Below are positions 1,935-64,000 of a DNA stretch of 64,000 nt, piece after piece. Source of the DNA: Massilibacteroides sp. GTDB lineage: Bacteria > Bacteroidota > Bacteroidia > Bacteroidales > Tannerellaceae. The stretch lies in NCBI RefSeq assembly GCF_028705895.1, contig NZ_JAQWCQ010000007.1:1-64000 (forward strand), read 5' to 3'. Under the pieces are notes generated by a model. It searched no databases. It was not told the origin of the DNA and was given only the letters and a program-made list of their open reading frames with translations. How positions within the stretch are numbered: the first letter of the stretch is position 1; each line of letters starts with the position of its first letter. The position numbers and the translations under genes were made by a program.

Positions 1935-2547
1935 GGCTTCCAACAAAATCAATCCCGTTCATATTATTGATTTACAACACATTAAAATCAATCGAATAGT
2001 TTTTATTTTTTGTGTTTTATTTTGACAAATAGATACTTTTTTCGTCCTTTTACTTACGCATAAAAAAATGTCCATCCTTGTTTTTTGATTTATAGCATCG
2101 TTTTAGACCAATAAATATTGCATTTAGACTAAAATAGCCCGTTTTTTACCGAAAATATAAAGGTTATTTTCTGAAAAATATCCTTTATATTCAAAAAAAG
2201 AATAGAATCTTTTTCCAAAAAGAATAGGGAGATTTTATCCATTGCCTTTTTTTGTTCAATTTTGATAATTCAAAAAAACGGGCATGCCGTATCGTGCGTT
2301 TTAAGTGTGGTTTTTCGGTGTTTGTTTTTCGGGTACATATATTGTCATTTTATTTAATAAAGCGCGTTAAAACAACGCTGTTGAAGCCGACGACAATTTG
2401 TCTGAAAATGACAAATTTTGCTATTATTTTGTTTTTTATTTCGCTTTTTTACATTTGCTGTCCACGATTTGTTTTAACCTATTGAGGTAATCCCATTAAA
2501 AACGACATAATCCAAGTGTAATAACAACCGGGGTTTCGGACTGATCC
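1935..2547 (+). mobile_element. Dispersed repeat copy A (5'-truncated copy of the 940-bp element)
   Basis: This stretch is nearly identical by eye to 19207-19820, with a few substitutions and small indels. It begins with GGCTTCCAAC and ends with the terminal CTGATCC (2541-2547), so the right terminal inverted repeat is kept. The left 326 bp found in copies B and C, including the left terminal repeat and the fold-back, are missing. It contains the imperfect AAATATAAAGG-type hairpin near 2150-2196. A 77-codon frame inside it has homologous frames in the other copies, but it breaks at an A-run in copy B and looks like chance in AT-rich DNA. No transposase is present. Confidence 0.75.
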
Positions 2548-18812: not shown

Positions 18813-18856
18813 AAAAATATAAAGGATATAATTGCAATTATATCCTTTATATTTTT
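18813..18856. repeat. Perfect 44-nt palindrome with TGCA centre
   Basis: Positions 18813-18834 and 18835-18856 are exact reverse complements (22 bp each) with no loop and the centre TTGCAA. Each arm contains ATATAAAGGATAT. The same arm in a 40-nt perfect palindrome with the same TGCA centre recurs at 63741-63780. Imperfect versions (AAAGGTTATTTT against ATATCCTTTATAT) are found inside the dispersed repeat copies. Next to it, GTGCTGAAAATCAACGGA (18782-18799) has a close inverse counterpart near 63795-63815. This looks like an interspersed palindromic (REP-like) repeat of this genome. Confidence 0.8.
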
Positions 18857-18880
18857 TTCTATATTACTATGCCTTTTTTT

Positions 18881-19820
18881 GGATCAGGCAAAATATCCGG
18901 TTGTTATGGTAATCACCCATCGTGATACGTCTATACTGCAAACTGGCATTTTAGAGGCCAATGTCATCAACTCAAACTTCTTGCTCCACTTTAGTCTTAC
19001 TATTCATCGAATAATTCCGGCTGAAAGCCGAGTATATATCAGCCCAACACAACGTGTTGGGTAATAGGACACCCTTCCTTTGCGGCCTGAAAGGACAGTA
19101 TAAACCTACCCTAACAGTTGGGCTATAATATAGCAGGCTTTCAGCCTTAAAGCCAAACTGTATAGCTTAAGTTGATGACATTGGTTTAGAGACTACGCTG
19201 AGCAGAGGCTTCCAACAAAATCAATCCCGTTCATATTCTTAATTTACAATACCTTAAAATCAATCGAATAGTTTTTATTTTTTGTGTTTTATTTTGACAA
19301 ATAGATACTTTTTTCGCCCTTTTACTTACGCGTAAAAAAATGTCCATCCTTGTTTTTTGATTTATAGCATCGTTTCAGACCAATAAATATTGTATTTAGA
19401 CTAAAATAGCCCGTTTTTTACCGAAAATATAAAGGTTATTTTCTGAAAAATATCCTTTATATTCAAAAAAAGAATAGAATCTTTTTCCAAAAAGAATAGG
19501 GAGATTTTATCCATTGCCTTTTTTTGTTCAATTTTGATAATTCAAAAAAAACGGGCATGCCGTATCGTGCGTTTTAAGTGTGGTTTTTCGGTGTTTGTTT
19601 TTCAGGGACATATATTGTCATTTTATTTAATAAAGCGCGTTAAAACAACGCTGTTGAAGCCGACGACAATTTGTCTGAAAATGACAAATTTTGCTATTAT
19701 TTTGTTTTTCATTTCACTCTTTTATATTTGCTGTCCACGATTTGTTTTAACCTATCGAGGTAATCCCATTAAAAACGACATAATCCAAGTGTAATAACAA
19801 CCGGGATTTCGGACTGATCC
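18881..19820 (+). mobile_element. Dispersed repeat copy B: complete 940-bp non-coding element with terminal inverted repeats
   Basis: The element starts with GGATCAGGC (18881) and ends with GGACTGATCC (19820). The two ends are imperfect terminal inverted repeats of 27 bp: the outer 7 bp GGATCAG and an inner 11-bp core CCGGTTGTTAT are identical, and about 21 of 27 positions match. An 8-bp CTTTTTTT lies directly outside both ends (18873-18880 and 19821-19828), compatible with a target duplication but low in complexity. The left third contains a nested fold-back (18958-19184). The rest is AT-rich with no convincing gene. It is a non-autonomous, MITE-like element. Copy A (1935-2547) and inverted copy C (34612-35519) belong to the same family. 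Confidence 0.8.
18958..19184. repeat. Nested fold-back inside repeat copy B
   Basis: Three inverted repeats are nested. The outer is CCAATGTCATCAACT at 18958-18972 against its exact complement at 19170-19184. The middle is GGCTGAAAGCC at 19019-19029 against GGCTTTCAGCC at 19136-19146. The inner is AGCCCAAC at 19041-19048 against GTTGGGCT at 19117-19124. The inner arm can alternatively pair locally (CCCAACAC/GTGTTGGG, 19043-19061). The same structure is present in copy C. Similar CTGAAAGCC / CCCAAC-GTTGGG modules occur, from memory, in other Bacteroidota genomes; I could not check this. Confidence 0.75.
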
Positions 19821-19899
19821 CTTTTTTTTGAGTCAGAATCACTCCCATTTTTACAAGTTTTTATGTCAAATATTAAATACGAAGCGGAAAAGCATTTCC

Positions 19900-34091: not shown

Positions 34092-34489
34092 GGGGCTGAC
34101 CGGTTTTGACAGCGAGCAGAAGTGGTTTGTAAGCATGTAGTGCGTTGTTGCCTTGCACTTTAATCTCAGACAGCGAACAATTAACTGGCGAAAATAATTA
34201 CGCTTACGCTGCTTAATCGAAGTACAGTAGATTTCAAGCTTAATCCCTGCAATAGTTGCGGGGACGTTACATCACCCGGATGCTGTTGCTCCGAAGCGGT
34301 CCGATCAGGTGGTGCAGCAATATCGGAGATAGTTTAGCGGAAGCCTCGTACGCTAAACGAAACTTTAGAGGATAAGGGATGAGTTGGTAGCTTTGGTCTT
34401 GCTCCTCCCCGACAATTAAAGCAAAGATAAACATGTAGAAAGCAAATTAATTCCTCGTTTGGACGAGAGTTCGAATCTCTCCAGCTCCA
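34092..34489 (+). ncRNA. ssrA: Transfer-messenger RNA (tmRNA)
   Basis: About 398 nt. The 5' end GGGGCTG and the 3' end CAGCTCC form the acceptor stem, and the 3' part contains the T-arm (GTTCGAATCTCTC). The upstream start GGGGCTGACCGGTTTTGACAG is the usual tmRNA beginning. The tag reading frame at 34187-34216 encodes GENNYAYAA followed by TAA. CCA is not fully encoded after position 34489, so it would be added post-transcriptionally. tmRNA with SmpB rescues stalled ribosomes and marks their products for proteolysis. It has its own promoter and a strong terminator. Confidence 0.97.
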
Positions 34490-34526
34490 CAGAAAAAAGT
34501 GCTGAAAAACAACACACAGCAGACAA

Positions 34527-34611: not shown

Positions 34612-35519
34612 GGATTATGTCGTTTTTAATGGGATTACCTCGATAGGTTAAAACAAATCGTGGACAGCAAATATAAAAAAGCGAAATAAAAAAAAACAAA
34701 ATAATAGCAAAATTTGTCATTTTAAGACAAATTATCACCGACTTCAACAGCGTTGTTTTAACGCGCTTTATTAAATAAAATGACAATATATGTACCCGAA
34801 AAACAAACACCGAAAAACCACACTTAAAACGCACGATACGGCATGCCCGTTTTTTTGAATTCTCAAAATTGAACAAAAAAAGGCAATGGATAAAATCTCC
34901 CTATTCTTTTTGGAAAAAGGTTCTATTCTTTTTTTGAATATAAAGGATATTTTTCAGAAAATAACCTTTATATTTTCTGAAAAAAACGGGCTGTTTTAGT
35001 CTAAATATAATATTTATTGGTCTAAAACAATATTATAAATCAAAAAACAAGGATGGACATTTTTTTACGCGTAAGTAAAAGGACGAAAAAAGTATCTATT
35101 TGTCAAAATAAAACACAAAAAACCAAAACTATTCGATTGATTTTAATGTATTGTAAATCAACAACATGAACGGGGTTGATTTTGTTGGAAGCCTCTGCTC
35201 AGCGTAGTCTCTAAACCAATGTCATCAACTTAAGCTATACAGTTTGGTTTTAAGGCTGAAAGCCTGCTATATTATAGCCCAACTATTAGGGTAGGTTTAT
35301 ACTGTCCTTTCAGGCCGCAAAGGAAGGGTGTCCTATTACCCAACACGTTGTGTTGGGCTGATATATACTCGGCTTTCAGCCGGAATTATTCGATGAATAG
35401 TAAGACTAAAGTGGAGCAAGAAGTTTGAGTTGATGACATTGGTCTCTAAAATGCCAGTTTGCAGTATAGACGTATCACGATGGATGATTACCATAACAAC
35501 CGGATATTTTGCCTGATCC
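34612..35519 (-). mobile_element. Dispersed repeat copy C (inverted; lacks one terminal inverted repeat)
   Basis: The reverse complement of 18881 to about 19790 with scattered differences. The left terminal repeat (GGATCAGGC...CCGGTTGTTAT) is intact, ending at 35519. The homology stops at GGATTATGTCG (34612), so about 35 bp with the other terminal repeat are missing next to the ssrA terminator. The nested fold-back module (about 35190-35450) is conserved, with a few substitutions. The intact end cuts directly into a HigA-type antitoxin gene fragment. An internal 91-codon frame is shared with copies A and B but looks non-coding. Confidence 0.8.
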
Positions 35520-63718: not shown

Positions 63719-63780
63719 AAAATATAAAGGTTATTTTTCCAAATATAAAGGATATTTTTGCAAAAATATCCTTTATATTT
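63719..63780. repeat. Direct repeat plus perfect 40-nt palindrome with TGCA centre
   Basis: AAATATAAAGG-TTATTTTT (63719-63738) is followed by a second, altered copy (63741-63760) whose exact reverse complement is 63761-63780, giving a 40-nt perfect palindrome. It shares arm and centre with the palindrome at 18813-18856. The flank at about 63795-63815 (CCGTTGATTTTCAACGCAC) resembles the inverse of 18782-18799. There is no T-run outside the symmetric part, so it is not simply a terminator of the peptidase gene, although it begins only 22 nt after that stop. Confidence 0.75.
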
Positions 63781-64000
63781 TTACGGCTATTTTACCGTTG
63801 ATTTTCAACGCACAAAAAAATGGCCTTTTTTCAGGCAATCAAACCTTATTTTTATCTACTTCTAACCGTTTTTTCAGATGGTCTGGGAAGACAATAAATA
63901 AGATGTTTTTCCTGTTCATCGGTAAAAATTACCGTTTTGTCGATTGTTTGTTATCTAATTGTTCGGAAACAGTATATTTGCTGTTTTCGAACAATCAGAC
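63781..64000. other. AT-rich right-edge intergenic region with a 15-bp hairpin
   Basis: No gene is seen. The arms 63958-63972 and 63981-63995 (ATTGTTCGGAAACAG and CTGTTTTCGAACAAT) form a 15-bp RNA stem with one G-U pair and an 8-nt loop. A smaller CGGTAA/TTACCG hairpin is at 63920-63934. What they serve depends on the sequence beyond the window. Confidence 0.5.

Follow-up and report, generated by a model that had tools for sequence, protein, structure and literature searches.

The closest described systems to the element studied here are the MITEs of Porphyromonas gingivalis (MITE700, MITE464 and BrickBuilt), reported with a MITE size range of 50-1000 bp (PMC4596501), and a MITE of Cardinium derived from IS982 (PMC9769881). 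A further point of reference is the Acido-Lenti-1 motif (RF01687), with Acidobacteria and Lentisphaerae as original taxa and rated 'probably' RNA by Weinberg et al. 2010 (PMC2864571), which according to a 2026 Tannerella paper may regulate the protease genes adjoining it (PMC13298647). None of the papers in the literature searched names ISAon1, the group of insertion sequences (ISs) to which our analysis leads.

We analyzed a 64,000-nucleotide stretch of a Massilibacteroides sp. contig (hereafter the window), in which a 940-bp non-coding element (the outer element) holds a second, smaller one (the inner element). Judged by its sequence features, the outer element is very probably a MITE, that is, a non-autonomous transposon, of the ISAon1 group of the ISL3 family that is moved in trans, because it has dispersed copies, conserved ends, 8-bp target duplications, an empty site and related autonomous ISs with near-identical ends. 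Mobilization in trans had been suggested by an initial annotation made from the window alone, and it emerges as the best-supported reading; what is new here is which group the partner belongs to, that one element sits inside the other, and that RF01687 comes into doubt.

The outer element in the window

The imperfect 27-bp inverted ends are present as first described, with GGATCAG on the outside and CCGGTTGTTAT on the inside common to both, and the 8-bp CTTTTTTT that had been noticed on either side was found at both flanks (Table 1). The initial annotation had also seen no transposase, and our ORF search found no frame of at least 100 aa within positions 18881-19820. The longest ORF lying fully inside (86 aa, TTG start, 19534-19794) covers a stretch with indels and a lost ATG across the aligned copies and is thus not conserved as coding; with small ORFs only and indels between copies, coding potential of the element was rejected.

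Table 1. Positions of the outer element, its parts and its further copies in the window
Feature	Position	Strand	Remarks
Outer element, full-length copy	18881..19820	+	940 bp, both ends and target duplication; from genome DNA search, end scan and copy alignment
Left terminal inverted repeat, outer	18881..18907	+	GGATCAGGCAAAATATCCGGTTGTTAT
Right terminal inverted repeat, outer	19794..19820	-	reads GGATCAGTCCGAAATCCCGGTTGTTAT inward
Target duplication, left copy	18873..18880	.	CTTTTTTT
Target duplication, right copy	19821..19828	.	CTTTTTTT
Inner element	18958..19184	+	227 bp, inverted ends CCAATGTCATCAACT, long fold-back; about 60 bp of the 285-286-bp form missing
Inner duplication, left copy	18950..18957	.	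TTTAGAGG in the window copy, TTTAGAGA in most others
Inner duplication, right copy	19185..19192	.	TTTAGAGA
RF01687 pair, left arm	19017..19061	-	27.0 bits, under the gathering score
RF01687 pair, right arm	19110..19148	+	29.2 bits in the window copy
AT-rich palindrome	19424..19463	.	AATATAAAGG...CCTTTATATT; also a free intergenic repeat at many places in the genus
Second copy of the outer element	1935..2547	+	97% identity; first 326 bp missing; right end intact at 2521-2547
Third copy of the outer element	34612..35519	-	96% identity; last 34 bp missing, right end included; left end intact at 35493-35519; inner element at 35216-35442

Two related copies had been pointed out in the window; their places hold, and each of them proved to be partial, with one end missing. 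Across all copies the outer element falls into three length classes (about 701-708, 939-940 and 997-1000 bp), so that at 700-1000 bp it lies within the published MITE range. The remark that it is large and structured for a MITE is answered on both counts, by this range for the size and, for the structure, by a second MITE that accounts for the structured part.

Dispersed copies, target duplications and an empty site

A DNA search of the element's own genome (G000, a 3.6-Mb draft assembly of 108 contigs) returned copies on dozens of contigs. A genome-wide search for sequences bounded by these ends had been proposed in the initial annotation, and scanning the end pattern with at most three mismatches gave 56 ends (26 + 30), compared with 0 + 0 for a reversed-pattern control, a number far beyond chance. 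The ends have distinct flanks at 26 left and 29 right positions, and about 30 dispersed copies are present in the genome. Many of these are located at contig ends, as expected because repeats break assemblies, and contig breaks of the draft fall within the MITE as well as within the IS. A search of the plasmid collection gave no match, a viral contig match was rejected as a single chance match within a coding region, and end-like matches in G031 (L088) and G002 (L089) are lone single ends without the element. A 395-bp relative in the same genome (L062:222-616 on contig C63) is 80-85% identical to the outer element, and lacks about 290 bp of its middle, which may mean that an additional insertion sits in the longer form.

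Among the 11 copies with two ends, five are bounded by an exact 8-bp duplication (L001, L006, L014, L015 and the 395-bp relative, where it can also be read as 9 bp), the five sequences being CTTTTTTT, GATATTCT, ACAATATT, CTCTTTTT and AGAATAAT, and in two more (L008 and L011) the duplication agrees at 7 of 8 positions. On average, true left and right flanks match at 6.4 of 8 positions, and at least 7 positions match in 7 of 11 pairs; for mispaired flanks the figures are 3.4 and 3 of 110. The initial annotation had named copies without the ends or the duplications as evidence against transposition; a clear duplication is absent from 4 of 11 two-ended copies, an outcome that recombination among the copies or the misjoining of contigs would be expected to produce. 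Terminal inverted repeats, multiple dispersed copies and a target duplication of constant length (8 bp), each a feature by which a MITE is recognized, were all found.

The search for empty sites that had been recommended yielded one: the sequences on the two sides of L006 lie next to each other in the sister species G002, with a different intergenic sequence between them and no element. Of the sites tested, it alone shows clear synteny with a sister genome, and the G002 intergenic DNA is too diverged to give the exact pre-insertion sequence. The flanks of several other copies are not syntenic in the sister genomes and hence gave no empty-site comparison.

We also considered a history without any transposase, in which recombination or conversion spread the copies as passive repeats. 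The copy tree is star-like, forms with and without the inner element are intermixed in it, and some copies lack duplications, all of which would fit such a history. However, the exact 8-bp duplications differ between the copies that have them, and together with sharply defined, identical ends beside about 26-29 different flanks they require cut-and-join insertion, so we regard passive spread as highly improbable. Within the history of a transposed MITE, the star-like tree is compatible both with recombination or excision between copies and with repeated transposition.

ISAon1-group insertion sequences carry near-identical ends

In a scan of 125 genomes of the family, the outer ends occur only in the element's own genome, aside from isolated single matches. 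One of these, in G007, is the end of an IS and led to the ISAon1-group ISs of the ISL3 family. The refined end GGRTCAGTCCGAAANNCCGGTTG was then scanned in 84,980 genomes and found in 94 stretches, nearly all from Bacteroidales. These include complete ISs of 1430-1439 bp (L129:2709-4138 and L157:2561-3999) with GGGTCAGTCCGAAAA(C/G)CCGGTTG at both ends, close to the right end of the window copy, which encode an ISAon1 transposase (NF049917, 404 and 442 bits) and an ISAon1 N-terminal protein. Ends shared with an autonomous IS are thus found in related genomes. Of the autonomous IS with the same ends and 8-bp duplications that the initial annotation had asked after, the same type of end was recovered, whereas no clear duplication was seen around L129 and L157. 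Three short non-coding elements from other Bacteroidales with ISAon1-type ends do have exact 8-bp duplications (L114, 270 bp, GTTACTCC; L132, 173 bp, AAAATAGA; L192, 238 bp, TCTTATAC).

The own genome contains C-terminal fragments of an ISAon1 transposase with ends GGATCAGCGGATTTTCTCGGTGGATAT at two contig ends, and the same end is found by a third contig end, where it adjoins a copy of the outer element (C6, L028). Neither an intact ISAon1 transposase nor an IS whose ends equal those of the outer element is assembled in the 108 draft contigs, and the IS ends that are assembled match the outer ends at only about 17 of 27 letters. A partner IS of the ISAon1 group would be expected to have ends close to GGATCAGTCCGAAACCCCGGTTG. 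The ISAon1 IS of G002 (L095; G002:C1:328750-330500) was set aside as a model on account of an in-frame stop and of end sequences repeated on one side, where the motif GGGTCAAGTGGAAAATCC recurs several times with about 20 bp of repeated flank.

The lack of a matching ISAon1 gene in the own assembly is what might speak for a transposase of some other family that recognizes similar ends by chance. This we consider improbable, since the end sequence is nearly equal to that of complete ISAon1 ISs and ISAon1 remnants are present in the own genome. In addition, an 8-bp target duplication fits the ISL3 family. Assignment to the ISAon1 group agrees with ends that start with GG and match complete ISAon1 ISs, and with the 8-bp duplication. 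An ISAon1-type transposase made elsewhere would recognize the 27-bp ends of the outer element and move it, leaving 8-bp target duplications; we infer both this transposase step and the action of such a partner in the own genome.

A second element nested in the outer one

Short forms of the outer element (L012, L014 and L015) read ...CATTTTAGAGACTACGC..., while in the long forms CCAATGTCATCAACT...AGTTGATGACATTGG is bounded on either side by TTTAGAGA, the mark of an insertion that duplicated 8 bp. Counted by distinct flanks, 21 left ends have the insert and 5 lack it. Absence of the inner element is probably ancestral, because the diverged 395-bp relative also lacks it. Dating the insertion by the copy tree was uninformative given its star-like shape.

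Of the 125 family genomes, 17 contain the inner ends, in as many as 45 places. In G124, ends CCAATGTCRTCAACTTAAG bound a 1453-bp IS (L259) with a 446-aa IS4-family transposase (NF033592, 158.7 bits) and the duplication CGTCTTCG, and the same ends bound non-coding elements of 211-475 bp, with exact duplications in L262 and L265. From this we conclude that the inner element is, by its predicted class, a MITE of IS4 type, its ends and 8-bp duplication being shared with an IS4-family IS. In one copy of the inner element (L058; G000:C10:1-531), another insertion inside it has raised the length to 388 bp.

A second MITE with ends matching an IS4-family IS would accordingly have entered one copy of the outer element, with an 8-bp duplication of its own, and the resulting composite now stands at about 20 places. 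The 21 left ends with different flanks that are accompanied by the inner element argue that the composite was amplified; it was either carried as a unit by transposition through the outer ends, or the insert was spread by recombination between copies, and the star-like tree does not separate the two.

RF01687 hairpins in the inner element

The inner part folds far beyond its shuffles (z -11.3), the long fold-back arising because most of the inner element is a pair of RF01687-matching hairpins in inverted orientation. Scores of 27-29 bits in the window copies lie below the gathering score of 37 bits because of the deletion; the right arm of the undeleted copy L008 (arms at 1342-1386 and 1488-1532) reaches 41.7 bits, and the G124 element L262 38.7 bits. 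No other Rfam family matched the element at its gathering score.

This structure and the match to a family curated as an sRNA are the grounds on which the whole might be taken for a selected structured RNA whose spread is secondary, the alternative that the initial annotation had offered and for which we found no support. The structure lies wholly in the inner element, which is marked as an insertion by its boundaries, by its duplication and by the copies that lack it; the deletion in the window copies takes the RF01687 match under threshold; an inverted pair folds identically on both strands; and RF01687 is multi-copy per genome, mostly in inverted pairs 90-140 bp apart, which fits a repeat and not a single RNA gene. 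We therefore give a selected RNA little chance of being the right explanation, and retain the nested-MITE reading.

Among the matches listed, 15 of 17 RF01687 hits in the own genome fall within the inner element, and the other two form an independent inverted pair outside this MITE family, with 520 bp between the arms (L268; G000:C31:102614-103245). Of 294 genomes sampled from the order Bacteroidales, 76 have RF01687 (for example G124, G090 and G033), with up to about 50 matches per genome and often in inverted pairs about 90-140 bp apart among the matches listed; also among these, one divergent order is shared by 23 of 25 close pairs in a first set and by 17 of 34 in a second, and the remaining pairs are tandem or oppositely ordered. 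RF01687 lies inside IS4-type ends in three genera, namely in the own genome, in L262 (G124; duplication CGAGGACG) and in L274 (G090; no clear duplication). No RAYT-like or HUH-motif ORF was found near 59 RF01687 loci (about 1.5 kb either way, loci of up to about 3 kb), and we claim no RAYT link for the hairpins. The multi-copy inverted pairs and their placement inside IS4-type ends speak for a mobile or REP-like DNA repeat, and we lean towards the view that RF01687, at least in Bacteroidales, is probably a hairpin module of such a repeat and not an RNA gene.

Surroundings of the insertions

Insertions lie mostly in AT-rich intergenic DNA, often beside hairpin repeats. An AT-rich hairpin repeat (TATAAAGGATAT...) occurs within 150 bp outside 12 of 55 ends, compared with 3.2% of random intergenic positions drawn from a 400-kb sample; the binomial p of 1e-7 is overstated, since ends belonging to a single element depend on each other, but the association looks real. 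The AT-rich palindrome AATATAAAGGATATT...AATATCCTTTATATT, which is also found inside the outer element, stands at window positions 18813-18856 and 63741-63782 and at many places in G000 and G002. This palindrome recurs often between genes in the genus, with 52 matches in G002, and might represent a terminator or a further small mobile repeat. On inspection of the sequence, several copies lie downstream of tRNA or tmRNA genes: the third window copy directly behind the tmRNA gene at 34092-34490 (tag GENNYAYAA), L015 behind a tRNA-Asn array and L062 behind a tRNA.

Comparison with known systems

If these readings hold, a large, seemingly structured non-coding repeat can be assigned to a definite transposase group, short elements across Bacteroidales are linked to ISAon1 ISs, and a MITE inside a MITE may be carried as an amplification unit. 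They also give a concrete reason to re-examine Acido-Lenti-1 annotations: were RF01687 a DNA repeat, its annotation as an sRNA, as beside the Tannerella protease genes (PMC13298647), would be misleading. Both arms of the inner element match the Acido-Lenti-1 model, over the gathering score in the undeleted copy, but in place of a single RNA gene we find an inverted pair inside a putative mobile element, in Bacteroidales. Like REP/BIME-type palindromic repeats, RF01687 here has many copies, paired inverted hairpins and intergenic positions; no RAYT-like motif was found within about 1.5 kb of the 59 loci searched.

The inner element resembles the IS4-family ISs of G124 in its ends and 8-bp duplication, and differs from them in having an inverted hairpin pair and no transposase. 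ISAon1-group ISs (ISL3; NF049916/NF049917, PF01610) have near-identical terminal repeats GGGTCAGTCCGAAAACCCGGTTG to those of the outer element, and related short elements have 8-bp duplications as it does; such an IS measures about 1.43 kb and has two ORFs including the transposase, whereas the outer element, at 0.70-1.0 kb, codes for nothing, and the likeness is seen in the ends only. As a non-coding, intergenic element of up to about 1 kb, present in tens of copies and with ends shared with an IS, the outer element is like the P. gingivalis MITE700, MITE464 and BrickBuilt and the Cardinium MITE; unlike them, it would be assigned to the ISAon1/ISL3 family, and most of its copies have another MITE nested inside.
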